From Balneolaceae bacterium (GTDB lineage Bacteria; Bacteroidota; Rhodothermia; Balneolales; Balneolaceae), in the NCBI GenBank assembly GCA_034521495.1, contig JAXHMK010000017.1, positions 1 through 64,000 on the forward strand: a stretch of 64,000 nucleotides of DNA, given 5' to 3'. Position numbers and translations under genes: made by a program. Below the pieces are notes generated by a model. The model was given only the letters and a program-made list of their open reading frames with translations, was not told where the DNA came from and searched no databases. This document shows positions 4,624-43,727 of this stretch, one piece after another; the first letter of the stretch is position 1, and every line of letters begins with the position of its first letter.

Positions 4624-7106
4624 TCAGAATTCAAAAACGTTTTCTCTATCAGCCAACTCCCCCGCATGATCCGGATGGCAAGTCATCACTATCATCGTAT
4701 TTCTGAAAACTCATTAATCGCCTTCACAACATTTTTTCTTCTTTCCGGGTCGATATCCACCATCGGATCGTCCAGGATAATAAAACCTGAGTACTGTTAT
4801 CAAGAAATTTCTCCGTAAGAGCAAACCGCCAGGCCAACGCTACAGTGTCTTTGGTACCGTGGGAGAGGAGTTCATAGGTGAGTGATGGAGTATCTTGCGA
4901 TTTAAAAGCGGTCGGCAGGTCATTATCCATCTCTATTGAAGAGAAACGCTGACCGGCCATCTTTTCGAGCCATTTAATGAAGCTTGTTTCCAGGCCTTTG
5001 TAGGTGTCGCTGTCCATGGATTCTATCAATTCAAGCGCCTTGTCGCGAACTTTTGCTAATGTCTCGGCTTGTTTATCAATGCGTTCAGACAATCGCGTAG
5101 CATGCATCCTAAGAGTTTCTGCAATTCCTCTGAGGAGGTTTCCGGCGCTTTTCGCTTCTAATTCAGTTCTCTCCTGTTTCTTTTCAAAGATGTGATCTTT
5201 CAGGTTCTGAATTGCCTGGTCCAACTGATTGACCTCCTGTATAAACTCGTCGGAAGACTCATATCCTTCGGGCAGGGAGGGGAGATCGTCAAGCTCCTGG
5301 TTTAATTCTTTAATGGTTCGTAGATGTTTATCTGCCAGACTGCCAATAAGACTTCATCGGATGAGCCATATTTCTCCTTCCACTCATCCAATTTGGTCTG
5401 GGCTTCCCCGGCTTCCTTGCTTAAATCGTTACGCTCTGTTTTGGCTTCAACAAGATCATCTGTGATCTCTTTTTCAGAACGTATGTTTGACAGGTCTCCA
5501 TATTCAGCAAGTTGTTCCTTGAGTTCGCTTAAATTTTGGCCTTCCAATTCACTTTTTAAGCTTTTTTGAGCCTGTTCCAGAGTATTTTGTTTCTGTCTGT
5601 ACAGTTCAGCGTACGATTCTGCGTCTTGTATGGAATCCACTCCAAGGTTTTCCAGGTATTCAGAAAGTTCTTTCTCTTTGGTATCCAATTCCCGGATCGT
5701 TTCTTCGAGATCTCCTTCACCGGCAAATACCGTTATGTTCAGGTCACCGGTTTTTAACGTAAACCCGCCGGATGCCTTTTTCTCAACAGGCTTTCCGCTT
5801 CTGCGGTTTTGATTTTCGTTTTCTTCTTTTTCCCTGCTTCCGTGTCCGAACTCGTTTGATCGGTGTCACTCTCAAGGCGTATCGTCAGTTTGGCCGCTTC
5901 AATTTTTGTGCGGTTCCGGGAGATGTGGGATTTCAGTTCTCTAAGGGCTTTTAAATCCTTCTCTTCAACTTTTAGTGCTTCTTTAACATCTTTTTTTGTC
6001 TGATCAACGGCATTTGAAAGATCTTCAATTCGTTTGATCTGCTGCTTTAGCTGTTGCGCTTTGTGCTTGTTCTAGAGCCTGTTTTTGTTCTTCCTCCAGC
6101 TTCTGGATTTGCTTATTTAAGGAATCGCAGTTCAGGTTGACGGTTCGCAATCTTATCTTCAAAAACCGGCCACTTTTTACTGACCTCCAGGTACCGGGTT
6201 TTCCGCTCATTTTTGTCTGCTTGTAACTTCTGCTCTTTTGACTGCCATTTGTTGGATTCCCTCTTTCAAGAGGATTGAGGCGGTCGAATTTCTCCCTGTT
6301 TTTCTCCTGTTGGCTGATAAGCTTCGTCAACTCTTCATTCACGAAGATACCAATTCATCTTCGGAACGGCAAGAGCTTCCTCGAGATCGATTTGTAGCTC
6401 GCTCTTTTTTATCGAAAGCTTCGACTACTTTTTCCGGTACCGACTTTATATGGATTTTTAATCCCCCGGTTATTCTCAGGGTATTGTTGCTCTCGATCGC
6501 AGCGGTTGGAATACTCTTCATACCTGTGATCCAAATTCTCTTTAAACGGTCTACAGACACGCCGCCTGTTTGCATCAATTGATTTTTTCGGAGGATGTTC
6601 TGCCAACTCTTTTCGAACCCGGCACAGTCCTGTCTCATCTGATGCATGGTATGAGTGCAAGCCGGACTGGTCGGCCAGCGGAATGGTTTCCGGAGCGTAG
6701 ACAGGGGAGTAGCGGTAAGATGCTCCTCGATGCTGTTGCTGAACGCTCTCTTCATTTGTGGTTGCGGTATCATCCGCTAAATGAAGGCTGGCCTGTCCTC
6801 TGCTGCTTCCTTTTTCCAGGTTTTTTGATCGGAGTATGCTCTTCTCCAGTGCGAATCGGATCAACTGGATACCCACGCGTGCCTACATCGCCACCGGAGG
6901 CTGGAAAATAAATCCCCATCGTATCTTCCAGTTTTGCGGTCGTCAGAAGGGTTGTCGTCAGTAGTCCGTGTAAAATAGCCTGAAAAAGAGTAGATACTGC
7001 CCGCTTCGTTTCGGTCCCAGAGAATGACATTCAATCCGTCTGGCAGATCAAATCGTTTATCCCGGATTCCGGCAAAGGGATGGAGATAGACCGACGTGAG
7101 TTTCAT
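4624..7106 (-). pseudogene. SbcC/Rad50-like coiled-coil ATPase, frameshifted
   Basis: The start is an ATG at 7106 (MKLTSVYLHPFAGIRDKRF), sharing an ATGA overlap with the SbcD-like gene upstream. A degenerate Walker A (LWDRNEAGS, expected GRNEAGKST) lies near residue 35. Long Glu/Lys/Gln-rich coiled-coil stretches follow (about 6340-5000), then RFALTEKFLDN. Walker B and the D-loop (LDDPMVDIDPERRKN) are recovered by a frame change near 4780. The end reads TMIVMTCHPDHAGELAD with a stop at 4624. About 825 codons is normal for a compact SbcC-like ATPase. There are at least seven frameshifts. Such ATPases pair with SbcD-type nucleases on DNA ends; here the pair follows a Schlafen-type protein, suggesting a defence role (inferred). 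Confidence 0.7.
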
Positions 7107-8237
7107 TGCTGAACCTCCTTGATCAGTTCGTAGGCCAGTTGCAGTTCCTCTTCCTCCTCTTTATCTGAAAACGAAGAAAGCAGTTGTTCCGGGAATGAGC
7201 CTTCGGTGAACTCTTTTTGGATCTGTTCGGTGGTGACTTTTCGGGCGACCTTCTGAATCAGTGCGCTTGCAATTCCAATACGGAATCCGCGGGATGGTTG
7301 ACCGGCCGTCCTGCCATGTTTCTTGCGCGCACCTTGTCTTCAAGCTTTCCGCTTACGTCAAGACTTCAACGACACAAGGATCTTCCAGGGAATCAGTCTG
7401 TGTATTCTGGCGATGAGTTTTGGAAACATCTTCTGCGGTTGAAAGCCGTTCTGTTTGTTGGACAAAACGGTAAGAACCGGTACGGATGGTGTTTCTGGGT
7501 TTGATATTCTTTTGGCCACCAATGGTGTAGAAGAATGCGCGGCCTTCATGTGCACGGGAAAATGCCGGTCCGGTTCGGGAGTGCCAGGATTGAAGATGAT
7601 ATCTCGTTTGTCGGGCTGTCTCCGGCCAGGTGATGATGCGGTATGGCGCGGTGGCCACAGGTCAACGCGCGAATCGTTCCAGTTCAGCGAATCGTCGTGG
7701 GGGTAATAGCGTTGGTCAAAGTCCGGCGAGACTCCCTCGATACTTCCGTGTGCAATTCCAATGTGAATGGCATCCGGTTCTTTCTCCACGTCTTTGACCC
7801 AACCGGTTGCATGTTCGGCGGAGTGCTTGGCATGGCAGGGAGCCGGATAGACAACAATCTTTGATTCAAAAGCGGACAGCTCAAGCGGTTCTTTTTTATC
7901 CAGTACCAGCACATGTTCATCTGACTCTTTTTTGAACCGGTCCCAAAGCTGACTGTCGGGTGTGATATAGTCGTGGTTTCCAGCAGACACCACGACAGCT
8001 TCTCCCTCAAACTTGATTGATCGCCTGGACGGCCGTTCGGATATCCCCAACATTTATGGACGTTCTGTCAAACAGATCACCGGCTATGACGAAGATATCG
8101 GCTTTTATCTTATTCGCTTGCTTGACTGTTTTTTGAAGCGTCTCATATCTCGCACTGGATAGAGTATCCTGGGCTTCCGGATGATTGCGGAAGGTTCGGC
8201 CCAGGTGCAGGTCGGCGATGTGAAAGATGGTTATCAT
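7103..8237 (-). pseudogene. SbcD/Mre11-like metallophosphoesterase, frameshifted
   Basis: The start is an ATG at 8237, overlapping the upstream stop as ATGA. The calcineurin-type motifs appear in order: ADLHLG (D-x-H), AGDLFD (G-D-x-x-D), SAGNHDY (G-N-H-D) and IGIAHGSIEG. The last G-H-x-H motif is garbled to PPRHTASS by a frame change near 7620. The C-terminus ends ELIKEVQQ at a TGA overlapping the next ATG. Total size is about 377 codons, close to SbcD. It is the presumed nuclease partner of the following ATPase. The first half is clean and the second is broken in at least three places. Confidence 0.75.
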
Positions 8238-9751
8238 GATTTTTTTAATCTATACTTTTGGTCGGGGTGTCTGGGGCTTTCCGGGTATATATATTCAATA
8301 AATCCGTCCTTCATCAACCCTCTTAGTGTTCTTGTAAAGAATCCGCTTCTGCTTTTTAATCCTAATTCATTTGCCAATTCTTCTGCTGAGCTTGGCCCCT
8401 GCTCTAAATGCTTTAAAATAGCCTTTTCCGTATCATTAAGGCTTATTTCATGAGCTTGGCCCCCAGCTTCGCCCCTAACTTCGCCCCCAGCTTCGCCCCT
8501 CATTTTTACTTCCGGATGAACCGGTAAAACCGCCAGGAAATAGGTGCGATCATCATCGGTTTCGAATGTAGGTTCCGGGGAACCGTTTCGCTTCATGGCA
8601 TCATAGATCTTGGGGAATCCGGTGGCACGGCCTTCGGTGAGTTGAAGCTCTTTCAAAAAGTCTCCAATCCGCCTGTTGCGATATTCACGGGAGACAATGC
8701 GTTTCTTCTTTAGCATCTCATTATTCACCGGAGGCAGCGGACCGGGGAAGCTGAGTACTTCGATCTGGTTTGGCCGAATATTCACCTCAATCGGGTTGCG
8801 CAATTCGTAACTTTTATGATAAACTGCATTCGCCAGCACTTCTTCAATGGCCGCATAGGGATAGTTGTAAAACCGGTTGGCTTCGGCACGCCCCTGTACT
8901 TTTCTCACCTCTTCGTGGATCACATTGGTGTTGATATACTCAAGTGCATCCAACAGTTGTTTGTGAATGGGCCCCTTGAAAATTTTTTCGGAGAATCGAT
9001 CACCCACTTCGTCTTTGTAGATCACCACATCAATCTGTGTGACTGGAAAAAACTGTTCGGGGTGCTCGTTAAACAACAGGAGACCGGCATTGATCGGTTT
9101 CAACTGCTCGTCCGAACCTTTTACGATCTGCATTTGTCTGCATAACTCCGGGAACGGAATAGAATCTGCTTGCTCAAAAAGCGGACTTCCCACATCTTGC
9201 AAAAACTCTTTGATCAAAGACAATTTCAGATCCTGAACCGTAGCCTGATGATTGATCCGGTCATCAAACGGAATTTTTGCGGCCAGCTCAAACAACGTTT
9301 TCTTCTCCTGCTGATTGGCCTGTACGGTCGAGTTGTACCGCCTGATCCAATAGCTGTGATCTTTCCGTTTTTTGGAAAGTGAAACCGGAGCCGAATAGGG
9401 GCGATTGTCCCCACCGGGGCAATATAAAACAAAAACATTCTTCCCCTGTATTTCAGCGACATCGGATACCCCAAAATAGGCCGGTTGAATGAGATTGCTC
9501 AGTTCCACCAATTTCTTTTGAATGGCATCCAACTGCTTTTCCTGAAGTCCAACCGGCGGCAATTGTGGAACCCCGTCTTTTTCCTCCACACCGATGACAA
9601 TGTAACCCCCACCCAGGTTATGGATGTCATTCGCAAAGGCACACATGGTGTGGATTACATCCTCCGGATTCCATCCTGTTTTATATTCAATGCGCTCGGT
9701 TTCCACTACCTGGCCTTTGATGAGTTTTTCTATGTTGATGGGGAGGGGCAT
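8234..9751 (-). CDS. Schlafen/AlbA_2-type putative DNA-binding ATPase-like protein
   Basis: An intact 505-codon frame stands out in a decayed neighbourhood. Residues about 10-135 form an AlbA_2 (Schlafen) domain (RIEYKTGWNPEDVIHTMCAF, GGGYIVIGVEEKDG). Residues about 245-390 resemble the RecG-like GHKL/HATPase_4 domain (AAIEEVLANAVYHKSYE as N-box, then EVLSFPGPLPP). A winged helix ends the protein (about 440-500). Between them lies a short Gly-Glu-Ala-Gly-Gly tandem repeat encoded near 8458-8502. Proteins of this layout are regulators or sensors in phage-defence and stress loci. The stop at 8234 overlaps the SbcD-like start as ATGA, so the three genes are translationally coupled. Confidence 0.85.
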   Translation of the reverse strand: MPLPINIEKLIKGQVVETERIEYKTGWNPEDVIHTMCAFANDIHNLGGGYIVIGVEEKDGVPQLPPVGLQEKQLDAIQKKLVELSNLIQPAYFGVSDVAEIQGKNVFVLYCPGGDNRPYSAPVSLSKKRKDHSYWIRRYNSTVQANQQEKKTLFELAAKIPFDDRINHQATVQDLKLSLIKEFLQDVGSPLFEQADSIPFPELCRQMQIVKGSDEQLKPINAGLLLFNEHPEQFFPVTQIDVVIYKDEVGDRFSEKIFKGPIHKQLLDALEYINTNVIHEEVRKVQGRAEANRFYNYPYAAIEEVLANAVYHKSYELRNPIEVNIRPNQIEVLSFPGPLPPVNNEMLKKKRIVSREYRNRRIGDFLKELQLTEGRATGFPKIYDAMKRNGSPEPTFETDDDRTYFLAVLPVHPEVKMRGEAGGEVRGEAGGQAHEISLNDTEKAILKHLEQGPSSAEELANELGLKSRSGFFTRTLRGLMKDGFIEYIYPESPRHPDQKYRLKKS

Positions 9752-9912: not shown

Positions 9913-12059
9913 TCATTTCATAGTGACTGCCGTGATCCATTTGTAAAAGATATCTTTAAAAACCTTCATGTATTTTTCTATATCACTTGAATCCACAGTA
10001 ACTGCTAAATCATCATTTATAAAGTGAGAACCATCATTTATCCAACCAATCAGGGATTTACATATCAACTTTTCATCACCTTCAAATTTATCAATGGCTT
10101 CCACACCATAATCTAAATTACCAAGGATGTTGAAGTAGTACTCCAAAATTCTACGCATAGTATTAAAATGGTAGCAGTATTAATATGATCAGGGTCATCC
10201 AACTCTCTCCACAATAATTCATAGGTAGTTTTTATTGGATTTTCTTTATGTTCTGTTATTCTTGATTGATTGTCATTTTTTTGGACTAACCAATAAGACT
10301 CCTCTTTCCATTTATTATACCTACTACCCCTAAATGTTACTTCCTTGAAGAAGTATACATTGTGTGTAAGTATAAAGATTTGTTTTATTCCATTTTTCCC
10401 TCTTTAGCATCACGTACAATTGTTTTAATTAAATTGCTTACCACAAAAAGAACGCTGCTGTCTAAACTTGATATTGGATCATCTATTACTACAATTTTGT
10501 TTTTTGTAATGCCTGTTTCATCTGTACTACCTTTTAAGAGTTGATAAAAATAAAGGAAAGTTATAAAGGTATATTCACCCTCGCTTAATGTCTGTCCAAC
10601 TTTTCGACCATCATTTCTTACTAATTCATAAAAACCTTTTTTATTAGCCTTTCTAAGTTGAAAATTCGTAAACCCAAAACTTCTTAGAAGTTTATTAATT
10701 TCATTTACACTATGTTGAACACTTGTTATGTTAGACTCTAATTTTTCAATTTTAATTTTTAGATTAGATAATTCACTCTCATGATTCTTTAAGCTACTTT
10801 TCAATCCTTTTAAAGCTTTTTCATGATTTGACTTCTCCTGACTGTATGACTTTAGATCAAGCTCAAGTTTATCAATGAGAAATCTCCAAATTTGTGATTT
10901 TAGAATCTTTTTTCTCGATCGATGTTGATTACAGTCTCATTATTTTCTCTTATTCTGTTATTAAATTGATCAATGATTTTAGTTATTTCCAACGAAATAT
11001 CATCAATAGAATCAATCTTAGCGGGGACACTAGGATTCTTAGTTTTATCTGCAATAATTCTAAGATTATTGTGGTTTTTTCTTCGAAAAGACTTTTTTTT
11101 CAAGAGTTCAGAAAAATCCAAAAAAGGAACTTCTTGCTTTATTATTTGGTCAATTTCTTCAAGTAATTTATTCCTTTCTAAGTGATACTCATTCCTGATT
11201 TTTCTAAAGTATCAATCTTCCTACGATAAGACTCGTCAAAAAAACTTTCAATTTCAGATCTTAGATTATCAGCAACACTCTGCTGACAGAATGGACACAC
11301 TTCATTAGAATGATCCAAATAGCCTAAACCCTCCTTTACCCAATCACTATTATTTAACTTTCTTATTAATTTCCCAATTTCTAAATCTTCTTTGCCAATA
11401 ATTTTTTCACGAAGAACTTTGCTTTGTTGTAAATCTATAAGCTTAGAGAAGTCTGAATTTTTGATTTCATTGTACCTTGATAATGATTCTGAAAACACCT
11501 GGTCACATTTTTCAATAATTTTTTGTTCTTCTAGTAAATCTGATTCATTTGTAGACTCATTCAAACATTTTTCAAAGAATGATTTTTTGCTGCCTAAATA
11601 TCCTCGGTAGGCAGGCTTGAAATGCTCCATGTATTTATCCTTAACACTCCATGCCCTCTCAATATAATTCTCTTCTTTCTCTTTGAACTCTATTTCATTT
11701 TTTTCAATATGCTCCTTAATACTTTGAATCTTTTCAGTAAGTTCATCAACTTTTCCCCTTGCATCTTCTAACTTTTGTTTTACTTCAGTTGAGTTTTTCC
11801 CAAGTGTAAAAATGCCTTTGATAGATTCACTTTGGCTAAAATTTTTTTCAACAAAGTCTTTATTATAAATTATTGTTTCAGTTGGGTTTAATGACCAATT
11901 AATACTACATTCTGAATGAGAATCACAATTATAGATTACTTTACCTATTGTAGTTTTTCCTGTACCATTTCCCCCGAATAGATAGTTAATAATGTTCGGC
12001 TCAAACGTTTCTAAATCTTTAAAAGTAGCGACGTTAGCTAATTCTATTTTTTTTATCAT
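9913..12059 (-). pseudogene. AAA_13-family ATPase (RloC/PrrC-like), frameshifted
   Basis: The ATG at 12059 starts MIKKIELANVATFKDL, with Walker A GGNGTGKTT at residues 29-37. Long coiled coils flank a CPFC zinc-hook-like pair (C255, C258). Later frames give LSEGEYTFITFLYFY (signature), IVVIDDPISSLDSS (Walker B/D-loop) and IFILTHNVYFFKEVTF. The C-terminal RRILEYYFNILGNLDY segment is typical of AAA_13 proteins. AAA_13 includes the anticodon nucleases PrrC and RloC, but I cannot place catalytic anticodon-nuclease residues, so the toxin role is only possible. Frameshifts lie near 11190, 10900, 10390 and 10160. It probably headed the locus whose SbcD-like stump follows. Confidence 0.7.
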
Positions 12060-15975: not shown

Positions 15976-15989
15976 AAAGATGTTGCCAG

Positions 15990-17339
15990 CTTAATACCGT
16001 TTCACTTGCCCTTGTATAAGCAGTATAAAAGCCATCTTGCTTTGTCTCTTCTGATCACAGATCGAGATATGGATGAACAAATACTTTGTTCACTCGCCCA
16101 CCTTGTGCTTTATGGCAGGTTAAGAGCGTTTAACCATATCGCAGTCGTAGAGCATTTAAATATTTGTCATCTTGAATATTCTTTGAACTTCTTGAAATAC
16201 AGGGTTTGATTGCATTACTGCTGCATACAATTTGGATTCTTGTTCTGGATGCAATTCTCCTTTTTTAGTTAGTAAAACTTCCCAACAAAAAAGTTTTGTC
16301 ACTTCTTTTTTATTGACTCCAGAACCGAACTCAATAGTACATTCTGAAAAGTGCAGTCCTCCAAATTTCTTGACCATTTCAAATCAACATTTTTCACTAT
16401 ACCGGAATCGCCATTAAAAATAATTCCTTCATTTGTCCAGTTATTTTTATGCAGAGACACCACATCTCCTTCTTCAGATATTCTTACTATAAGGAAATCG
16501 TTCTTTTCGGATTTCCTGGTTCCACCAGTTTACATCTTTATTAGTATGACAGATGATCACAACTTTATCAAGATTGTTTGGTGTGAAACTCTGTAGACAC
16601 ATCCCTCACATGCCACCAATTTCTATTTGAATCTGGATAAATAGTGTACATCGTATTCCCATGTCTAATTTTATCTCTTATATCGGTTGCAAGTTTTAAA
16701 AACATCGCTCTTTTCATCTTGCCGCATTACCTTTGTGAGAGCACTCTCCCCAACTTTAGTTTTAAATTTATTTTGTAAATAGGAAGGGGCCAGAGCGTAT
16801 GAGATGGATTTCTCAAAGTTTGGTACAACAGGTGGTAGTTGATAGTGGTCACCTACAAAAATGATTTTATTTCTCTCATCACCCATAGTAATATATCGAA
16901 TCAAGTCTGTTAATAGAGGTGCTTCCGAAACAAATCGCCCACCGGTATCTTTATAATCTGAAATCATTGAAGATTCATCAACAACTATATGCAATGCCCA
17001 TCTTCATTTTGACTTCTTGAGATTAAACTGAACACGACCGTCATCCAATTGTTCAGGTATATATATCATTGAATGGATAGTTTGAACACTACTTCGAGTT
17101 GGTTTTATCGTATAAACCTTAGCCGCTTTACCCGTTGGAGCCGCAAGTCTGCTTTTTATATTTTTCTTTCGATGATATCTGAAATCGCCTTCATTATGGA
17201 TGTCTTCCCTGTACCGGCCGCTCCCTTAACCACCATAATTTTCCGATCATCTTCAGGATTAATGAATCTAACCAAGTCTTCAAGCACTGAGCTTTGCTCA
17301 GAATTGGGTTTAAAGTTCAGATATGTCTCCAAACTTCAT
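15990..17339 (-). pseudogene. RecD-like (AAA_30/UvrD_C_2) DNA helicase remnant
   Basis: All hallmarks occur in order across changing frames from an ATG at 17339: Walker A VVKGAAGTGKTSIMKAI near 17215, motif Ia RLAAPTGKAAKVY near 17130, Walker B VVDESSMIS near 16980, motif III IIFVGDHYQLPPV near 16850, and the C-terminal UvrD_C_2 motif TCHKAQGGRVNKVFV near 16110. A middle segment, TIEFGSGVNKKEVTKLFCWE, is also recovered. There are at least six frameshifts. RecD-like helicases of this size accompany several defence systems. It converges with the lipoprotein gene and lies directly downstream of the retron operon on the same strand. Confidence 0.7.
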
Positions 17340-17442
17340 CAAATCAACTCCTATTCAAGTGTTGACTTAATCGATAGAAAGGATTAGTGCAGTGTTTGTG
17401 CACTATTAGAATTCAATTTTATTGATTATGAGCAATTAAAAA

Positions 17443-18567
17443 TCAGCTTAAACAAATTTTCAAATATTCCATGAATTCTATAATCTCAGATGGCTTTATA
17501 TAGTTTTTGATGATTACATTATCTCCATGTGCAATTTTATTCTCGAAGATCATTGTGATATCCAAAATCTTCTAAAATAGAATTGTCGCAATTATGTCTA
17601 AATGCCAATACAAAACTGATTTTCGCTAAACTATTTGGTTTATATCGATTGTAATTATCACGTATTTCAAAGTAAGGGTAATGTTCATTATCTCCTTCGA
17701 TATGTTCTAACTTCCAAAGTTTTTCTCCTCTATCATTTCCACTAGTACCTGATACAACGCACACATAGCTACCATCTTTCTTATACACATAATCATTACG
17801 GTCAATCGATTTGTATACATCTTCTACATTAGAGGAATAATCTTCCAATATTTGGAAATACATCAAATAAGCAAAATTAAGATTTACTTGTTCACTTTTT
17901 GACTTACTTAATAATGAGAATGCAATTTTTAAATGGTTAATAGCCCTGGAATAAAAGTTTTCTAATCCACTTTTATTTGTTTCTTTTTTTAGGTGAATAC
18001 ATTTTTTATTAAATCTACGTGTATTTCAAATATTTCTCTCAAATACGAAGCATTGATGCATTCGAGAATTGTATCCTTAAAATTTTTTAGATTTTCTTTT
18101 GATTCTTTTCTATTAAAGCCATCTAAAGGTGATTCTTTAATGTCAGTAGCCATCGACACCAATATCATAGCCATCTTCGTACATTTCAAGTAATGCTTTC
18201 ATATTCCAAGCTTTGTTTGAAGCTGTGAAAACAACAACTTGGTTTCCTTTATTTTTAGTCTTTATTTTCTTAGCAATTTTTGACCCAGACAGTTTAGTTG
18301 TATTTAAGTTTTCTTCAAGATCACCCTTTAATCTTAAATCGACTAAAAACAGATCAAAATCCCCTGATTCAATCATTTTTTTGCTTGAATCAGTCAATTC
18401 TGAATAATCATAAACAGATTCATCTATTATTTGAAATTGCCCATCAATATTCTCCTCAAATATCAGTAGATAGTACTTCGCTCCAACCTTTATTAGCTTC
18501 ATCATCAATCAAAAGAATACGTTTATCACCTAAATTGATTCTAATCTCTTCGTTTAGAAGGAATCAT
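17443..18567 (-). pseudogene. Receiver-domain protein with C-terminal HEPN (RNKIAH) domain, frameshifted
   Basis: This is the last gene of the retron operon, 3 nt after the previous stop. Across frame changes the N-terminus is a complete response-regulator receiver: RILLIDDEANKGW (acidic pair), FDLFLVDLRLKG (phospho-Asp), VVVFTASNKAW (Thr) and DGYYIKESP (Lys). The remaining ~230 residues are helical and end near LRNKIAHGD, an R-x4-H motif of HEPN ribonucleases, once one extra G near 17543 is discounted. As written, the frame stops at LRE just inside that motif. Further frame changes lie near 18560, 18455, 18160 and 17990. HEPN proteins commonly cleave RNA as toxins; I infer that this is the effector, controlled by phosphorylation or by a partner. 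Confidence 0.65.
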
Positions 18568-18569
18568 CT

Positions 18570-19211
18570 TTATTGACTTCTATTAACGTATTTTTTTCGA
18601 AACAGATCGTAATTTCGTGCACGTAAAAAATTAAAGTAGAGTGAATCAAGAGATTCTAGAGTAGCATTTGGTAAATTAGAATAATTAATATTCGCTGCTT
18701 CAGCCATTCTATAAGCACCCCATTTATTAGCGATGGAATGATTTCCAATGTAGTCACTTCTATCAATATAAATTGAGTCTAAAAAGTCATTGTAAGTCTT
18801 GGCTTTAAATTCTAATCCGTCAAGTTTTTCATAGTTTTTTTGCAATTCTTCAAAATCAGAAAAAAAATATACTCCTTCAGTCAACAAAAAATTAGTGTGA
18901 GGACCTATGGATTTTGCTATATCATTCAAATTACTTTCGTCATCTGTTAAAAAAACTATAGGTACAAGTGATCGATCATTTAAATTGTGTGGAGATAGCC
19001 TAACATGTAAACTTAGTTCAATTCTTTTAATCCTTTCAGCAGACGAAGTTGGGAATGGAACTATTAGACCACCTAAATCTGCATACTTACCCAACTCATG
19101 TTCTATCCATTCTGATGGTGAAATCCCAAGTTCATCAGGAAAACCAACTGAAATAAAATTTTCAATATTTGCATTTGAATCTAAAATCAGCCACTCTTTA
19201 TTAGTTTCCAT
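18570..19211 (-). CDS. Unknown 213-aa protein of the retron operon
   Basis: The frame is intact from an ATG at 19211, about 10 nt after the preceding stop. I do not recognise a family. The middle (LVPIVFLTDDESN, then NFLLTEGVYFFSDFEELQ) has an alternating strand/helix rhythm like a receiver or Rossmann fold, without an evident phospho-acceptor set. The C-terminal third contains NHSIANKWGAYRMAEAANI and a helical tail ending at residue 213. Position between a pseudo-receiver and a receiver-HEPN gene suggests a signalling or adaptor role in the retron system (inference). Confidence 0.7.
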   Translation of the reverse strand: METNKEWLILDSNANIENFISVGFPDELGISPSEWIEHELGKYADLGGLIVPFPTSSAERIKRIELSLHVRLSPHNLNDRSLVPIVFLTDDESNLNDIAKSIGPHTNFLLTEGVYFFSDFEELQKNYEKLDGLEFKAKTYNDFLDSIYIDRSDYIGNHSIANKWGAYRMAEAANINYSNLPNATLESLDSLYFNFLRARNYDLFRKKYVNRSQ

Positions 19212-19220
19212 CCTTCTCTT

Positions 19221-19890
19221 TTAAAAGTTCCGTAATTCTTTTTTGAATTGTTTAACTCTAATTGGTTTATTATCCCAGTTTTTAACTACTTCAGAATAAT
19301 CTATTTGAGTTTGAGCGTTTCGGATAAACTCTCGAAATTGTTCCTTTGGTAAGTAACTAAGTTTTACCAATTCATCATCTTTTCGATATATCAATTTAGC
19401 TAATATTTGATCTGCTAATTTTTTTAGTCTCTCTTTGTCAGCTTTTTGGCCAAAAGCAAATATGGATAAATCCACATTTCTCGTTTTTTGAAAGTTATTA
19501 AGAAAGGGAATAAGTCTTTTATAGAATGTAGATTTCTTTAATATTCTTCTATAATCGCGGGATTATTTTTATCGAAAACGATATCATTATTTGCACCACC
19601 TGAAAAAATTACTAAAGGAATTTTTTCACCAATTGAGAAATATCCTCAATTATTTTATCAGCGTTAGTGGTTGAACCACTGATATAGTTGCCATCTTCAT
19701 CAACATCTTCAATGGATTTATGTAATAGGATACATTCAGCATCATTTAAAAAATTTAAATGCTCAATAAATGCTATATCCTTAGTTTTTGGGATTTTTGG
19801 AATAATTTTAAGGGAATATTTTTCAGTCTTTATATTCGATAAAAATCTCTCTCTTTGAGAATATTGATTATCATCAATTAAATAAATCAT
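19221..19890 (-). pseudogene. Receiver-like (pseudo-receiver) protein, frameshifted
   Basis: The ATG at 19890 overlaps the upstream stop as ATGA. It starts MIYLIDDNQYSQRERFL, the beta-1/acidic-pair start of a receiver domain. The expected phospho-Asp position reads ECILLHKSIEDV, so the acceptor appears replaced, while beta-4 PLVIFSGGAN keeps the small hydroxyl residue. A frame change near 19612 sits in a run of six A where seven restore the frame (VKKIPLVIF). A second lies near 19545. The C-terminal ~85 residues (VDLSIFAFGQKADKERLKKL onward) are helical and unassigned. I read it as a non-phosphorylatable partner of the receiver-HEPN protein. Confidence 0.6.
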
Positions 19891-21179
19891 GGTCTATAAA
19901 AAAATGTAATAGTATGCTTAAATCCATTTACACCTTTGTCAGTTTTTAAATATTCAATATTAGGTTCATTATCATCTAATAACATATTTACTTTTACTGG
20001 GACTAGTTTATCGTCATTATTAAATGCTTTTGTTTCAATTGACCAATTAGCTTGCCTGAACAAATTTTTCCTTATTTCTCCCATTTCTCCTTTTTCAATA
20101 GATTTGATCCAATTATCCTTTATGTCAGAAATATCTATTTCTGGATACGATCCTAATTGCTCTATAAATATGTTGTTCACACGATAATTTTCAGCTGCTT
20201 CTTTATTTGTTTTAATATTGATTTTTTTGTGACTGGAGTGATTAAGCATTTCTTTAAGAATTAAATCAAATGCTCCAACTACTGAAGGGACATGACAATA
20301 AAAATCTAACCTTTTCAGACTTGAATTAGTCGTTATTTCCCAATCACTATCTTTAAAATTATCTTTGATTAATTCATCAAATATCTGCGCTAAATCATTT
20401 TTCTTTTTATCTATTCTAATTAGTTTTCTAAATGCGTTTATATACTTTTCTTTAAAATCATCATTCCCATATGGACTGCGTTTAGTCATTGAAGACCATT
20501 GTTTTATTTCTGGACTTGACCAACCCATCGTTAGTACTTCTTCATCTGCATCCCTCCAATGTATCAGATTCCCTTTATTATTTTTTTACCAAGATTTTTT
20601 TCAAATGCAAACCGTTGCATTACTATCCAAATAGTTTTTGGGAATTTTAAGTTTTTTCGTTTTTGAATTAAATAATTTCTCAGTCTTGTTTAAAAAATTT
20701 TCAATATCAAATATCTCAACTTTATCAAAATCATGTGTTAAATATTTGAAACCATCACGAGCATTAAACAACTGCATAAAATCTGCAAACTCCTTTGGCT
20801 TATGAGTTTTGAGATTAATTTTATTTTTTTCTTTTTCAGTTTTAGCCGAAGAAGTTGATATTTCATTTGAAATATTTTTGTTGTTATCTATCCGTTTTTC
20901 AAATTCTTGAATCTTCCGTTTTATAATCTCTACGTCCTCTTTAACCGAATTTTGGTCATTTTCTAGATTCTTTACTTCTTCGGATACTAAATCGAGAATC
21001 TTCTCCTTATGCTTCAAATCTAATATTTTGCTTTTTAATAACTCTTGAATAAAAGCAATTTTTGATGGAACTGATTTTTTTGTTAGGATCTTATCAGTGT
21101 TTGTTGATATTCTAATAGATTCAGAAGTTGATTCATCGTTAAAACTTCTTAAAATTTTAATCGGATCTGTATTAGTCAT
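19887..21179 (-). pseudogene. Coiled-coil protein with possible GHKL-like N-box, frameshifted once
   Basis: It starts about 20 nt downstream of the RT stop. Residues 1-130 are highly charged and coiled-coil (FIQELLKSKILDLKHKEKIL and on). Then come KPKEFADFMQLFNARDGFKY and, after a frame change near 20600, HWRDADEEVLTMGWSSPEIK. The C-terminal part contains FDLILKEMLNHSSHKKINIK, resembling the N-box helix of GHKL ATPases (E...N...H), followed by NGFKHTITFFYRP at the end. No clear G1/G2 boxes are visible, so a histidine-kinase-like ATPase is only a suggestion. Joined length is about 430 residues. With two receiver-like neighbours, a kinase-like or scaffold role is plausible. Confidence 0.55.
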
Positions 21180-21199: not shown

Positions 21200-22394
21200 C
21201 TAGCTTTTATAAAAATAATTCATGGCTTCCCAAATACCATTCGTTCTCCATATACTTATTAACTTATCTGGATCAAAATCTCTAGACTCTCCAATTAAAA
21301 CATCAAACCTATGCTTTAATTTTTTATAAGTAGTATCCGAGTGGCCTTTCACCATTTTCAAATATTGTAATTTGCCATGTATTAAGTTTTCTATTTTTGG
21401 CGTTCCATTTTTAATATGGCCTTTATCTTTTACATAAGCATTTGAAATCAACTCTTCGGCTTTCTCATAGCCATATCTCTCCCAAAAATAGATCCAATGT
21501 CTTAGCTGCTTTACATATCGTCTTCGGACATTAACTTTTTCATTAACAATTAAACCTGTCACTTCCTGGCTTTGGGAGCTTGTATTTAACCGTGTCTTTT
21601 TTGCTTTAGGTGAAAATTTTGAGAATTAATAATCTGTGCTAACTCAGTTCTAAAACTCCCTTTTTTCTGATATATGTTATGATTTGAAGAGAATGTAATA
21701 TCATCTGCATATCGTGTGTAGGTACATCCATAAATACTGCTAAGTTTTTTGAGTTCTTATCAAGTCTGGCAAACAATAATGTAATAATTACCGGTGAAGA
21801 TGGAGCCCTTGCGGGAGTACGTCTTTGTTAACCTTTATCCACTGCCCATTTTGTTTTCGTTCCACTTCTAAATTTGTAAAACAGATACCTGCAATACGAT
21901 TTGCCAATTCGATTCTGTCTGTTTCTTTTATTCAAATTAAATGGAGAATATTGTATTCGTTTCCAGAAGCGAGGTTTATCTATTGAAGGAAAGAAATCCT
22001 TTAAATCGATATTGAAAACAAATTCTTTGTCAACATGAGCTCTGGCGTTATCAACTATCGATTTATTATCAACAAATCCGGTAGCAGCTGGATGTGGTTC
22101 AAAAAGAGATTGAAGAAGTATTGCAATCGATCTTTGAATACTTTTCAAACCTCCTTTAGGAGCATGTATTGTCCGAAAGCCTCCTGATTTCTTAGGTATT
22201 TTAAACTCTTTAGATGAATCGGTAACCTTTCTGGGACTTGAGTAGTATGTAAGTGATTTGATTTGTATAGGGCGAGCCTTATTTCCGTACAGGAAACTAT
22301 TTATCAAATTTAATAGAGAGAGTAAATCTTCTAAAGAGTGCATTTCATTGAATTGCTCTTTAATGATGTTAATATGTGATTCTGTTATATCCAT
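21200..22394 (-). pseudogene. Retron reverse transcriptase, frameshifted
   Basis: The RT makes msDNA from the adjacent ncRNA. I choose the ATG at 22394 because an earlier in-frame TTG (22436) would place the start upstream of the a2 arm. Motifs in order: FKIPKKSGGFRTIHAPKGG (RT1-2), DNARAHV (retron region X, NAxxH), FVFNIDLKDFFPSI (catalytic Asp), LPQGAPSSPVI (RT4), YTRYADDITFS (catalytic DD), VTGLIVN (retron region Y, VTG), then a basic thumb VRRRYVKQLRHWIYFWERYG. Frame changes occur near 21915, 21800, 21735 and 21570, yet every catalytic and signature residue survives. It is the first gene of a five-gene same-strand operon. About 400 codons, slightly longer than a typical retron RT. Confidence 0.85.
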
Positions 22395-22410
22395 TAGACT
22401 CTTTAAAACC

Positions 22411-22427
22411 CTTTGAAAATACCTGCT
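22411..22427 (-). repeat. Retron a2 arm
   Basis: This 17-nt arm pairs perfectly with 22641-22657. It forms the 3' end of the putative ncRNA, 16 nt before the RT start codon. Confidence 0.85.
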
Positions 22428-22640
22428 GATACTCAATTATATATGTCCAATCATTCGAGAGAATAATCAGTCATAATAGCAGCCATAGATAATCACTTCC
22501 ATGTTACTGCTTGTGCAGTTGTACATGATCAGCAACCTTGATTTATGCTGCAAATCAAGTGCTTACATTCAACCCAAAGGATGTTGCAACATCTTACTTT
22601 GGGCAGACACGCCGAATACAGCGTGTAGGTTCAATATCAT

Positions 22641-22657
22641 AGCAGGTATTTTCAAAG
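22641..22657 (-). repeat. Retron a1 arm
   Basis: This 17-nt arm is the exact reverse complement of 22411-22427. It forms the 5' end of the putative ncRNA. Confidence 0.85.
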
Positions 22658-22765
22658 AACTTATTTGATTGTAGTTGGTTAAAATTGAAGAATTTTATTG
22701 TATTCGTTAATGATAAGTGATAAAGTAGGCATAAACGATGCACTTAATCTGCATTAAAATTCAAT
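22658..22765. promoter_or_regulatory. Divergent promoter region between retron and WYL regulator
   Basis: The 108 bp between the ncRNA 5' end and the WYL gene ATG must hold both divergent promoters. The segment is very AT-rich and has an imperfect AAGTG...CACTT inverted pair around 22714-22745, a possible operator. No confident -35/-10 pair could be assigned. Confidence 0.4.
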
Positions 22766-23797
22766 ATGCCAACAAATAAAAATGCAATTATAAGGTATCA
22801 AGTCCTTGACCGGTGCTTTAGAAATCCTGGAAGGAAATACTTTTGGCAAGATCTTCTTAATGAAGTTAATAAAGCTCTTGAAGAGTATAATGGTCCAGAA
22901 AGTAAAATCAAAAGACGGCAACTTTTTGACGATATACGATTTATGGAGAGTGACCAAGGATGGTCTATACCTTTGAAAAGGCATAACGACGAACTCGATA
23001 GGAGAAAAATATACTACCGGTATTCCGATCCCAACTTTTCAATTTCAAATCGAACCTCTGAATGAAAGCGAGATCAACCAGATTGAGGCTGCTGTTATCT
23101 GTTCTATCCAGGTTTGCAGGTGCACCTCAGTTTGAGTGGGTACAGGAGCTGATCCCGGTATTGAAAGACCGCCTTGGTTTAAAAGAGACGGAAAAAGAAG
23201 TCATCTCCATTGAATCCAATATTGATCTTAAAGGGTTAGACCACCTATCCACACTTTACGAAGCAATCATCAAGCGAACAGGTCTTAAAAGTAGAGTACC
23301 AAGATTTTAAATCAGAAAAGCCGTTTCCAGTAATATTTCATCCCTACTACCTGAAACAATACAACAACCGCTGGTTTGTATTTGGCTTAAACGAAGAATT
23401 GGATATTGAAACCTGGAATATGGCTCTTGATCGGATTGTATCCATTAAGCAAATACAAGGGAGCATACAGGTCGACAGGCATTGATTGGAATGAATACTT
23501 TTACGATATCATCGGGGTGACAAAGAAAGCTGGTGAGGATGTACAAAAAATTGTACTTGAATTCTCTGAAAAGTCGGCACCTTATGTTCAAACGAAACCG
23601 CTCCATCCTACTCAAAAAATCAGAAGAAAGAGATTGTAAGCTGATCGTCACGAATTGAAGTGATCCCCAACTATGAACTGGAGTTTTTAATTTTGTCATT
23701 TGGGGAGAATGTTAAAGTACTTGACCCTGAAAAGTTGAAAAAGAAAATTGAAGATCGATTTAAGGAGGGAAGAGGCAATTATACAAATCCTTACTAG
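22766..23797 (+). pseudogene. WYL-domain transcriptional regulator, frameshifted
   Basis: The ATG at 22766 begins MPTNKNAIIRYQVLDRCFRN, the winged-helix start of WYL-type regulators. A frame change near 23045 leads to LSRFAGAPQFEWVQELIPVL. Another near 23288 gives the WYL core (VIFHPYYLKQYNNRWFVFGL, then MALDRI). The C-terminus is NYELEFLILSFGENVKVLDP, a WYL C-terminal extension, with a stop at 23797. WYL proteins bind nucleic-acid ligands and repress many phage-defence loci (for example CapW and BREX regulators). Divergent orientation from the retron suggests it regulates that operon (inference). There are three or four single-base frame changes. Confidence 0.75.
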
Positions 23798-26370: not shown

Positions 26371-27546
26371 TTATTCAATCCCCTTTATCGCATTCGTAAT
26401 ATCGTTCTGATCCAGATGTTCATAAATTTGAGTTACATGGACCGATGAGTGTCCCATAATTTTTTGAACAATATGGATGGGAACTCCTTTTCTCAGCAGG
26501 TCCGTTGCGCAAGAATGGCGTAATCCATGCAGAGTTACGGTGTTTGGAACCTTGGAGGCCTTCTTCACAAATTTCTTAAAGGATTTCGACAGTGCTCCGG
26601 GGTCCATTCCATGATATCGATTCAGTCCTGTCGAACTGGGAAATACATATCCGTCACTCGGTTCGCCCTGGTCTTTATGCCATTGCTCTAACCAAGGTTT
26701 TAGAGGCTTGCGGATCGGTATGACGCGTTCTTTACCGGATTTTGTGGTGTTATCATCTGTATTTGTAATGTAAATACGCCCGTAATCCTTTGGATCGTTT
26801 GGATTCCCAGTCAAATCAACGTCAGTCCATTTTAGATTAACCGCCTCCTTTGCCCTGAGTCCGCAATAGTAGATCGTATTGATCATCGGCTTAAACCACA
26901 ACCGTTTTTGATGAGGTTTGGTGACGGCTCCTTCTTTCTCCTGGATTTTATAGAATTTATCAAACGCCTTAAACACTTTATTCAGTTGCTTTCTTGAGAT
27001 CGTTTTTTGTGTAATTTTCTGCGGAATTCGGGGAGCTTTGATGTTTTTGACGATGTTTTCTTTTATGATGTCGCGTTCATAGAGCCAGTTAAAAAAGACT
27101 TTGAGATGCCGGAGGTAACTGGCCTGGGTAGCAGGGGCCAGATCAGACCGAAAACAAAACTCGCGGATATCCGATTCATAAATCTGAGTTACCGGCATGG
27201 TTTTTCCCAGTTTCTTCTTCAACATATCCAAATGTTTGCGGTAATTTTCCTTGGTAGTCGCGTTTGCCTGGCTTCGTTGTGCAACGAATTTTTTTGCAGC
27301 TTTATGAAGTGAAATATAGCGGCCTTTTAATTTCTCCCGTTTCTTTTCTGCTTCTTTCTGAGGAGTCCAGCCATTAAAGGGATCGATCTCGCCCCGAATA
27401 TATTTGTCTTCAAATTCTATCCGCAGCTTTTCGGCTTCCCTTTTGAGTGTAGTTCCTAAACTGAACGCCTTTCGTTCTCTTTTTCCATTTATTTTTCTAA
27501 AGAAACGGATGTAATAGATATCACCTCTTTTCTTAAGACTGGCCAT
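26371..27546 (-). CDS. Tyrosine recombinase/integrase
   Basis: An intact 391-residue integrase. The N-terminal part is an Arm-type DNA-binding region (MASLKKRGDIYYIRFFRKIN). A SAM-like core-binding domain spans about 75-165, and the catalytic domain about 180-385. Catalytic residues are visible: R231 (CGLRAKE), K269 region (TTKSGKER), H340-x-x-R343 (HGLRH), H366 (GHSS) and nucleophile Y375 (QIYEH). It presumably integrates the island into the CAU tRNA 522 bp away, downstream of the tRNA 3' end. It is one of the few uninterrupted genes of the island. Confidence 0.93.
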   Translation of the reverse strand: MASLKKRGDIYYIRFFRKINGKRERKAFSLGTTLKREAEKLRIEFEDKYIRGEIDPFNGWTPQKEAEKKREKLKGRYISLHKAAKKFVAQRSQANATTKENYRKHLDMLKKKLGKTMPVTQIYESDIREFCFRSDLAPATQASYLRHLKVFFNWLYERDIIKENIVKNIKAPRIPQKITQKTISRKQLNKVFKAFDKFYKIQEKEGAVTKPHQKRLWFKPMINTIYYCGLRAKEAVNLKWTDVDLTGNPNDPKDYGRIYITNTDDNTTKSGKERVIPIRKPLKPWLEQWHKDQGEPSDGYVFPSSTGLNRYHGMDPGALSKSFKKFVKKASKVPNTVTLHGLRHSCATDLLRKGVPIHIVQKIMGHSSVHVTQIYEHLDQNDITNAIKGIE

Positions 27547-28067
27547 AAATAACGTAGTTCATTTGAGTTCGAATTACATTTTTAAAAGAGTCTCCCCTTG
27601 AGGAGAGTCCGCCTTTAGGCGGGAGGGGTGTTCTTGTTCTTTATTCAAGGCTACAAGTTCAATAACTGGCTCGTTACAATCTTCAACCATCCCTAAATTG
27701 CCTCCCCCGAAGTCTCGTGATCAAAAGAGACTTGGAAAGGAGGGACTTTTCCTCATCCAAATTCAGATTTTTTCAAGCTTACCCTGGATGAAGTTCAAAA
27801 TTCTGAATGGGTACATGAGCGGGTACAATTTGTACCCATTTATTGGCTTCTAAATAGTCCCAAATAAAGCACAAAATCTTGGATGAAAAGTGTTAACTAC
27901 CTCCATTTTTGTACCCACTGGTGTACCCACTAATTACGTAATTCGTGTTTAAAAATGAAAATGATTCACGCAGTCTTTTTTTGATTGAATCTGGAAAAGT
28001 TCAAAAAATGTACGTTTAAACGGATTAAAGGGCGATTTTTTGGTAATTTCAGGAGGGAAGAAAAAAG
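27547..28067. other. Integrase-tRNA intergenic region, presumed attachment flank
   Basis: No gene is visible. It holds a copy of a dispersed palindromic repeat (27591-27630) and several GTACCCA direct/inverted copies (about 27808-27935, for example TGTACCCACTGGTGTACCCA), which could be integrase arm-type sites. The T-rich run after the tRNA 3' end may serve as its terminator. No duplicate of the tRNA 3' end was found elsewhere in the window. Confidence 0.45.
27591..27630. repeat. Dispersed CCCCTCCCGCC...AAGGGGAG repeat
   Basis: The reverse complement of this stretch nearly matches 53931-53970, sharing CACCCCTCCCG-CTAAA-GC and CTCAAGGGGAGA. It appears only in intergenic DNA. Confidence 0.6.
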
Positions 28068-28141
28068 TGGGCCCGGAGGGACTTGAACCCCCGACCAATC
28101 GATTATGAGTCGACTGCTCTAACCGGCTGAGCTACGGGCCC
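28068..28141 (-). tRNA. tRNA with CAU anticodon (Ile2 or Met)
   Basis: The cloverleaf folds fully: acceptor GGGCCCG/CGGGCCC, D stem GCTC/GAGC, anticodon stem GTCGA/TCGAT around loop CTCATAA (anticodon CAU), and T arm GGGGG-TTCAAGT-CCCTC. CCA is not encoded. The TTGGTCG variable region and TTCAAGTCC T arm resemble E. coli tRNA-Ile(CAU), which needs lysidine at C34; an elongator tRNA-Met is the alternative. Its 3' end faces the integrase, the usual geometry for an island attachment site. Confidence 0.92.
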
Positions 28142-29834: not shown

Positions 29835-30956
29835 GTGAACCAAAACTTCATAATACCCATGATTTACAGCCTTGGTACCGATATGTCCAAAGATGAGTTC
29901 AGTGCGTGTCTGCAACGCTACAATCTTTACGAACAAACCTACCATCTACTTGCCCGCAAAACTTTTGCAAACAAACTCTCTGGTTTTAAAGCCTGTATGC
30001 GTTGGTTGAGGAGACACACCAACAAACAACCAGCCCCGGTTCGTGTGACGATGGAAGCCACCGGCGTGTATTATGAACCACTGGCCCTGCATATTGGCCA
30101 GCATCACCCGGAGATTCATCTGGCCGTGGTCCTGCCCAGTCAATCAAAAAAGTTTATCGAATCTCAGGGATATCGCAGTAAAACCGATAAAATTGATGCT
30201 GAGGGACTCTCGCTGATGGGAGCCGAACGCAAGCTGTCTGCGTGGAAGGGAATCGATCCGTTTTGGCGGGAATTGCGGTCCATGACCCGTACGCGTTCGG
30301 AATTGTTGGAGCAGCGCACACAGTTGCGTAACCAACTTCACGCCCTTTCCCACAGCGGGCAGCCAGCCCGTTATGTTGACGGAGCTCTACAGGAGTGTAT
30401 TCAGACACTCAGTGAGCAAATTGACAAGCTGACCCGTCTTATCAAAAAACACCTGAAGTCTCGCAACGATCTGAAGACCTCGGTCGCTTGTCTGAAAAGT
30501 ATTCCCGGGATCGGCATGCTGACGATTGCCTGCATCCTGGCTGAGACCAACGGATTCGCTGAGTTCCACAGCATTTCTCAGTTAATTTCCTTTAGCGGTT
30601 ATGATGTGGTGGTCAAACAATCCGGCAAATGGACCGGACAACCGAAAATTTCCAAAAAAGGCTCCAAATATATCCGCAAGACGATGTATATGCCTGCCTC
30701 GACCATTGTGCGGTGTGAGCGGGGTCCGGTATATGAATTATACCAGCGACTGCTCTCGGTCCACAATGTGAAGATGAAGGCCCACGTAGCTGTTCAGAAA
30801 AAACTACTGACCTACATGTATGTATTGTGGAATAAACAACAAACATTTGATCCGGATGTCATTCAAAACCAACGCAACCAACATCAAACAAAGATAGCCC
30901 CTCCATCAGCTGACGGAGAGGCTACAGTAGATACATCACATGCAAAAGCATCATGA
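29835..30956 (+). CDS. IS110-family DEDD transposase
   Basis: 373 intact residues. The N-terminal RuvC-like DEDD domain shows D in GTDMSKDEF, E in MEATGVYYE, and D..D in KTDKIDAEGL. The C-terminal Transposase_20 domain shows LKSIPGIGMLTIACILAE and FSGYDVVVKQSGKW, with the conserved Ser segment MPASTIV. A start a few codons downstream (M9, IYSLGTDMSK) is possible. It catalyses bridge-RNA-guided recombination in this family. The intact frame suggests a recent, possibly active copy. Confidence 0.92.
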   Translation: MNQNFIIPMIYSLGTDMSKDEFSACLQRYNLYEQTYHLLARKTFANKLSGFKACMRWLRRHTNKQPAPVRVTMEATGVYYEPLALHIGQHHPEIHLAVVLPSQSKKFIESQGYRSKTDKIDAEGLSLMGAERKLSAWKGIDPFWRELRSMTRTRSELLEQRTQLRNQLHALSHSGQPARYVDGALQECIQTLSEQIDKLTRLIKKHLKSRNDLKTSVACLKSIPGIGMLTIACILAETNGFAEFHSISQLISFSGYDVVVKQSGKWTGQPKISKKGSKYIRKTMYMPASTIVRCERGPVYELYQRLLSVHNVKMKAHVAVQKKLLTYMYVLWNKQQTFDPDVIQNQRNQHQTKIAPPSADGEATVDTSHAKAS

Positions 30957-42979: not shown

Positions 42980-43727
42980 ATATCGAATAACCAATAATGA
43001 ACATCGAATGTCGAAGTGATAGAATCCACCGACTGGCGCAAGTGTTAAGCGAAGCGTCACTTGTGCCCCTTTCCCTTTGCAAATAAACATAGGCACAAGT
43101 GACATCCTTGACTTACGGATGGCAGAATTATTCTTCCAGCAAGACAAACCCTGTATTGAGGAGTTACCACATTTTTTTAAGCAAATAATTAGCAATGACG
43201 ATGAAATTTGTCTCGGTTTTTGAAACGTCCCCAACCGTCGGGACCAAGGAGTTTTTGCGATCAAAAGCCCCGAAGGGGCGTCATCAATAGCATAGGACGG
43301 AGTCCTATGTATTGGGAATCATAGGAATTGTGTAGCCCTGAAAGGGCGTAAGCTTTCCTCTGACAATCTCTTGGGCTTACGCCCTTTCAGGGCTGATCGA
43401 ATGAAATGCGTTATTTTTCATAGGGTTTCACCCCATGCTATTGATGACGCCCCTTTGGGGCTTATTATGTAGTCTTCTTTCAAACAAAGAGCATTTCCAC
43501 TTGTTTAAAAAAGTATCCTTCTGATTTTATTGAACTTACAGTTCAAGAAGTAAAAATTTCGGGGTAACTTCTCAAACCCTGTATTATTCCAATTTTTGCT
43601 TTCGAATACCGGATTTAACACTTGCGCCAGTTTGGGGATAGAACCCTTCGAAATTCAACATTAGATATTCAGTGTTCGATATTCACACCCTCTGTTGATT
43701 CCGCCTGTATGTTTGTATCTTTAGCCC
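42980..43727. other. Intergenic region with a large nested palindrome
   Basis: No convincing gene. Besides the palindrome at 43266-43462 it holds GTGATAGAA(T/C)CC copies near 43015 and 43640 and TTCGATATTC/GAATATC motifs around both ends, which look like degraded repeat flanks. Confidence 0.55.
43266..43462. repeat. 197-bp nested palindromic repeat
   Basis: Outer arms AGCCCCGAAGGGGCGTCATC (43266 on) and its near-complement ending at 43462 share the motif CATCAATAGCA/TGCTATTGATG. Inner arms AGCCCTGAAAGGGCGTAAGC (43334) and GCTTACGCCCTTTCAGGGCT (43374) are perfect complements. The shape suggests a folded intergenic repeat or nonautonomous element. Confidence 0.75.

Follow-up and report, generated by a model that had tools for sequence, protein, structure and literature searches.

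Retrons are three-part systems in which a reverse transcriptase (RT) and its msDNA restrain an effector. In a 64,000-nucleotide stretch of a Balneolaceae genome (contig JAXHMK010000017.1, positions 1 to 64,000; here called the window), a long inverted repeat stands directly ahead of an RT gene, which raises the question of whether a retron is encoded there and what it might restrain. The initial annotation read the locus as a retron, an interpretation that missed both the frame breaks and the kinase-like, receiver and HEPN-type genes that make this retron unusual. As described below, what is restrained here looks like a signalling chain of several domains.

The non-coding RNA and its conservation

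The predicted retron ncRNA (msr-msd, a1 to a2) occupies 22411-22657 on the minus strand, which also encodes the RT. We recovered the perfect 17-nt inverted repeat described previously, with the a1 arm at 22641-22657 and the a2 arm at 22411-22427, enclosing 213 nt; the pairing extends to 22 nt when G-U pairs are counted. The a2 arm ends 16 nt ahead of the RT ATG at 22394, and the in-frame TTG at 22436 sits 5' of this arm, both as claimed. The minus strand from 22394 to 22675 folded at -95.2 kcal/mol, its shuffled versions averaging -63.0 (z -6.51; 0 of 200 shuffles equally good). The opposite strand folded with a z of -4.88, as expected from the inverted repeats. Five hairpins had been counted between the arms, in agreement with a predicted fold that has five to six within the closing stem. 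At gathering thresholds, Rfam gave no retron match at the ncRNA, its two matches in the window both lying elsewhere. An Acido-Lenti-1 RNA match at 43266-43309 (minus strand) is barely at its gathering score (37.1 versus 37 bits).

Arms were scored as the best pair ending 5-35 nt ahead of a start codon. The score of 45.5 obtained for the window was matched by none of 184 control ORF starts. Upstream of 10 of the 12 complete RTs of the clade defined below, the best pair near the start scored at least 24.5; L014 and L018 were not above controls by this simple measure. Four of the 184 control starts also reached 24.5, one of them belonging to another retron RT in L017. This Flavobacterium locus contains a second retron-type RT (L017:15962-17053) with its own 11-nt arm pair directly upstream.

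A conserved 5' domain of the RNA (22565-22638, minus strand) comprises the GATATTGA motif, hairpin 1 (7 bp, 22608-22625), hairpin 2 (22573-22603 in the predicted fold) and the sequence TGAATGT. The G of the ATTGA core of the motif, at 22632, is invariant in eight aligned loci and is a candidate msDNA priming guanosine, since priming as a rule starts from a conserved G adjoining the repeats. When eight loci were aligned by sequence alone, 96.4% of the 56 cells of hairpin 1 were paired, and in eight cells both partners had changed (none of 500 shuffles); slid versions of the hairpin pair in 18-42% of cells. With strands picked by hand, standard pairs numbered 53 of 56 for hairpin 2 and 86 of 96 for a1/a2, counts that are biased because the strands were chosen for pairing; the covariation claim therefore rests on hairpin 1 in the sequence-only alignment. 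Aligning seven ncRNAs over their whole length with MAFFT yielded no consensus fold of use.

A covariance model of the RNA 5' domain (R2) was trained on six loci, with the window and L014 held out. In 252 kb it placed the window first, at 26.7 bits (E 0.013), and L014 second, at 26.6 bits (E 0.014), and it also found the held-out plasmid loci L057 and L058 (E 2e-5 and 1e-4, respectively). At six further plasmid RT loci R2 gave no match, and it missed all four loci of the Prevotella/Muribaculaceae branch (L018, L019, L047 and L049), whose RNAs have diverged but fold with their own stems (z -4.87 for L047). A related model, R1, matched 5 of 395 genomes of the phylum, every time at an RT of this clade; the RT search found 12 of the 395, and the five with a clade RT are the same five. 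All five R1 loci were in its training set, and the result shows specificity rather than discovery. A genuine retron implied conserved structure upstream of related RTs, and such structure was found, both as held-out model matches and as a helix covarying across eight loci.

The reverse transcriptase and the surrounding island

The RT gene lies at 21200-22394 on the minus strand. The retron signatures NARAH, YADD and VTG reported for it are all present, but they fall in different reading frames, the gene being broken by frame shifts in several places, and in this respect the earlier description was incomplete. Both RT pieces gave retron RT profiles as their best PADLOC matches. Identification as a group II intron, DGR or Abi RT was considered and rejected because retron profiles win; with NCBIfam models, group II scored 80 bits versus 260 bits for the retron-TIR model.

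In a phylogenetic tree, all 12 complete Bacteroidota RT rows form one clade with support of 100/99. The 14-row clade obtained by adding the N-terminal piece from the window and the partial L015 RT again received 100/99, with the window beside L014, so that the window piece falls inside the retron-RT clade, as the initial annotation had predicted. The 12-row tree was built without L002 (no YxDD), the tree with the window piece also without the viral rows and L012/L013, and both without L028-L031, L036 and L061; long-branch warnings attach to L003, L013 and L062. In this tree, from which reference RTs of most other retron types are absent, the clade is separate from the rows for type I-C, XII-like and Ec67 RTs. 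Eleven clade members score 313-350 bits on the PADLOC RT-Protease_XI profile; on their own models, the XII-like RT of L016 scores 464 bits and the I-C RT of L034 526 bits. Judged from profiles and tree, the clade RT is near types XI, XII and I-C yet apart from the rows tested. These types (RT-protease, RT-TIR and RT-Toprim), whose RT profiles are the nearest to those of this clade, carry their effector fused to the RT C-terminus, like the kinase-like domain in three relatives described below. The clade belongs to none of them: Pfam scans of the L019, L018 and L047 RTs found no protease, TIR or Toprim domain. Separately, L016:8312-9910 (genome G051) encodes a retron-type RT, nearest type XII, whose C-terminal fusion partner is an Mrr_cat restriction-endonuclease domain (Pfam E 2.8e-6) and not TIR. 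A search of viral contigs with the window RT found six loci at 32-43% identity, and a search with an L014-type RT found nothing. Overall, the structured and conserved ncRNA, the RT motifs, the profiles and the clade support the original proposal, and the element is very likely a genuine retron.

The copy in the window lies in a disrupted stretch. Comparison with relatives by tblastn shows that the RT, kinase-like, receiver, helicase and WYL genes are all broken, and intact copies of the operon genes are present in relatives. In the first 24 kb, the fraction of each 4-kb block taken up by ORFs of at least 200 aa ranges from 0 to 0.6; beyond 28 kb it ranges from 0.44 to 1.0. The frame breaks can come from assembly errors or from decay; either fits. 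To the right of the broken stretch are a tyrosine integrase gene (26371-27546) and tRNA-Met (28067-28141); no duplicated tRNA-Met end that could mark an island border was found in the window. The broken stretch also holds a fragment of an AAA_13 (RloC/PrrC-type) ATPase gene at 11178-12059, probably another defence gene. A Schlafen AlbA_2 + HATPase_c_4 protein with a C-terminal Fic-like domain match is encoded at 8234-9751, and an intact IS110-family transposase at 29835-30956.

Kinase-like, receiver and regulatory genes at the locus

The gene following the RT, at 19887-21179 on the minus strand, matches HisKin-conflict (PF22561) and is split into two ORFs. It is followed on the same strand by a small, broken receiver-like gene (19221-19890), recognized by tblastn with its L047 and L033 homologues, and by a broken gene at 17443-19211 encoding iREC, REC and a C-terminal domain that is HEPN-type in relatives; the latter was identified from an iREC match, a weak Response_reg match and tblastn. 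A broken gene for a RecD/PIF1-like helicase (PADLOC PDC-M16A; 15980-17335, minus strand), a probable accessory, completes the order in the window: ncRNA, RT, HisKin-conflict, receiver-like, iREC-REC, helicase. The L014 locus reads helicase, ncRNA, RT, HisKin-conflict, small receiver-like, iREC-REC, and the helicase thus varies in position, from the 3' end of the locus in the window to the 5' side in L014. The HisKin-conflict protein of L014 matches PF22561 with an E of 4e-97, and the window kinase gene matches SKA1 weakly (E 0.087). NCBIfam had no family for the L014 and L057 kinase-like proteins; PADLOC had none for those of L014, L019 and L057 or for the receiver proteins of these three loci, except for SduA, a weak match to the L014 receiver protein alone. 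The PADLOC candidate PDC-M16A shares the helicase (321 bits in L014), but its models cover the helicase alone, with no kinase-like or receiver protein.

The kinase-like gene is next to or fused with the RT in the window, L014, L019, L033, L042, L047, L049, L057 and L058. RT and kinase-like domain form one polypeptide in L019 (Prevotella sp. P3-122), L033 and L042 (MT837349.1; the domain was recognized here at E 9e-30 in a tblastn search with the L014 protein), and the genes are separate in L047, L057 and L058. L049 holds the RT and the start of the kinase; L050, on another contig of that genome, holds the kinase end and the receivers, and we infer that the two are joined as one locus. L048 encodes kinase and receivers on a contig that ends before the RT position. 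The clade members L017, L032 and L035 have no kinase-like gene and carry a 260-263-aa R-x(3-4)-H protein instead, and the L018 sequence ends too early to show the gene. Its presence in 8 of 12 clade members is not a frequency, because three of them were reached via the kinase-like gene. L017 additionally encodes a protein of 1003 aa that has weak beta-propeller matches.

A search from the kinase side found the gene in 2 of 395 genomes of the phylum, in 4 of 249 from the G456 genus and in one phage record. Six of these seven places could be tested, and all six have an RT of this clade adjoining or fused. Viral contigs searched with the kinase-like alignment gave nothing, as did plasmids searched with the L019 kinase-like query; the L057 query found two Chryseobacterium plasmids (NZ_CP033935.1 and NZ_CP094531.1), on which L057 and L058 are intact operons. 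The L057/L058 operon is located inside a type I restriction-modification region, directly after a DEAD/DEAH helicase gene that follows hsdS. On NZ_CP094531.1, a plasmid of Chryseobacterium oryzae ADR-1, the locus from RT to response regulator, ncRNA included, spans roughly 11.2-16.4 kb.

One His of an H-box-like stretch is invariant in all eight HisKin-conflict proteins. Canonical kinase ATP-binding motifs (N and G boxes) were unrecognisable by eye in the alignment, and phosphotransfer may therefore not occur. All nine aligned receiver proteins keep the acidic pair, the acceptor Asp and the Lys without variation. Pfam iREC scores well over its cut-off in L014 and also matches in L019, and it is unmatched in L057 and L058. 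When the C-terminal domains were excised and realigned, the only invariant residues were the R, N and H of RNxxxH (9 of 9). The HEPN RNase signature is given as Rx4-6H, with N, D or H following R, in the accessible part of PMC3710099. RNxxxH occurs once per protein in the nine relatives, in which it was read, the window's own stretch spanning a frame break; R[NDH]xxxH appeared in 57 of 2000 shuffled tails. Pfam HEPN_RiboL-PSP matches one of the nine C-terminal domains, weakly (E 0.0075), no PDB sequence match was obtained, and both structure models of the domain were poor (pLDDT 49 and 38). The domain carries a HEPN RNase signature and is a predicted RNase with a putative HEPN fold.

Divergently oriented from the ncRNA is a broken WYL-type regulator gene (22766-23782, plus strand; tblastn with the L014 WYL protein, E 6e-79). 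A WYL gene is nearby in the window, L014, L015, L017, L032, L035 and L047, an identity tested with Pfam in L014 and assigned by reading at the other loci; none is listed near L057 or L058. An operator-like TGCA-N7-TGCA site is present between the WYL gene and the ncRNA (22739-22753) and another just 5' of the helicase gene (17388-17402); the window has four in all, two of them inside genes, versus 0.8 expected. The site is found 5' of the ncRNA at eight loci (the window, L014, L015, L017, L032, L035, L057 and L058) and was not found there in L033 and L042. L014 has a further copy at 6822, between the helicase and WYL genes. In the accessible part of PMC9122601, a WYL-family protein, BrxR, is described as a repressor of a defence island that binds to inverted repeats. 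The WYL protein here probably keeps the locus quiet via the TGCA-N7-TGCA sites as putative operators.

A candidate effector module and its alternatives

By gene content, the effector component of a retron is present as the kinase-like and receiver/HEPN-type genes after the RT, and we consider it quite likely that these genes form the effector module of this retron. Somewhat less firmly, we favour a retron that would guard a relay releasing a HEPN RNase, as an uncatalogued effector variant predicted from domain content. The RT would copy the RNA into msDNA from the guanosine next to a1, and the resulting RT-msDNA particle, touching or fused to the HisKin-conflict domain, would keep that domain resting. 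Phage damage to the particle, or its modification, would start a signal, which the kinase-like and receiver domains would hand on either by phosphotransfer or by shape change; the freed HEPN domain would then cut RNA and stop the infected cell. The RecD-like helicase and the WYL regulator are frequent companions of the operon. That the chain is a working phosphorelay, in which a histidine kinase linked or at times fused to the RT would sense that its own msDNA is lost or modified and would phosphorylate a receiver that turns on the HEPN RNase, is a tentative proposal.

Retrons are divided by effector into sixteen subtypes, HEPN included, in the accessible part of PMC13405049. Type IX retrons (e.g. 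Kva2) likewise have an operon in which RT and ncRNA go with a HEPN RNase effector, and they sequester the RNase (same source, same part). Their partner is a winged-helix protein, whereas here it is a HisKin-conflict protein with receiver domains; no winged-helix gene was seen in the L014 or L057 operons. The L014 RT scores 158 bits on RT_IX versus 342 bits on RT-Protease_XI, which places it outside type IX. We infer that type IX is the closest in output, with RT and middle layer different. HisKin-conflict (PF22561) and iREC (PF22563) both match here; Pfam describes them only as conflict-context domains, with no retron link in either description. A literature search, from which subscription papers were missing, found no retron with a histidine kinase or receiver effector, and none is described in the accessible parts of PMC7159879, PMC8934634 and PMC12548924.

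The same gene order might instead bring together an ordinary retron and an independent kinase/receiver/HEPN defence module, neighbours by chance and working separately. Chance pairing has a precedent in a HipA kinase and DUF3037 beside Retron-Sda1, which defend without the RT or ncRNA (accessible part of PMC12548924), and the shifting position of the helicase would suit it. So would the predicted defence system for which HATPase, REC and SKA1 domains are named in a figure legend of PMC13092281, itself accessible in part; that study may have caught this kinase/receiver module without the retron, because the legend names SKA1, weakly matched by the window kinase gene. However, the RT-kinase order is identical in nine loci, three of which encode both in one polypeptide, and the six testable kinase-like genes all adjoin an RT of this clade, making independent neighbours rather improbable.

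It is also possible, though not our preferred reading, that the HEPN toxin is held directly by the RT-msDNA particle in a type IX-like manner, HisKin-conflict and receiver domains being an inert scaffold. The three clade members that lack a kinase-like gene and encode a small R-x(3-4)-H protein are consistent with this, as are the unrecognisable ATP motifs and the sequestration of a HEPN RNase by type IX retrons. An inert scaffold would not, however, need the invariant His or the invariant receiver Asp and Lys. Finally, the broken genes and the scarcity of long ORFs in the left 24 kb could mean that the retron has decayed and no longer functions in this host. This seems unlikely to us, since the breaks are common to non-retron neighbours, which fits assembly indels, and the ncRNA retains full pairing.

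Should the tentative phosphorelay prove real, no other retron would be known to have a two-component-type output. The favoured reading of a retron guarding a HEPN-releasing relay, if true, would link retron immunity to two-component signalling and would make possible a direct test of whether the state of the msDNA sets receiver phosphorylation, for which the intact Chryseobacterium plasmid copies (NZ_CP033935.1 and NZ_CP094531.1) provide material. The HisKin-conflict and iREC domains would thereby gain a setting.
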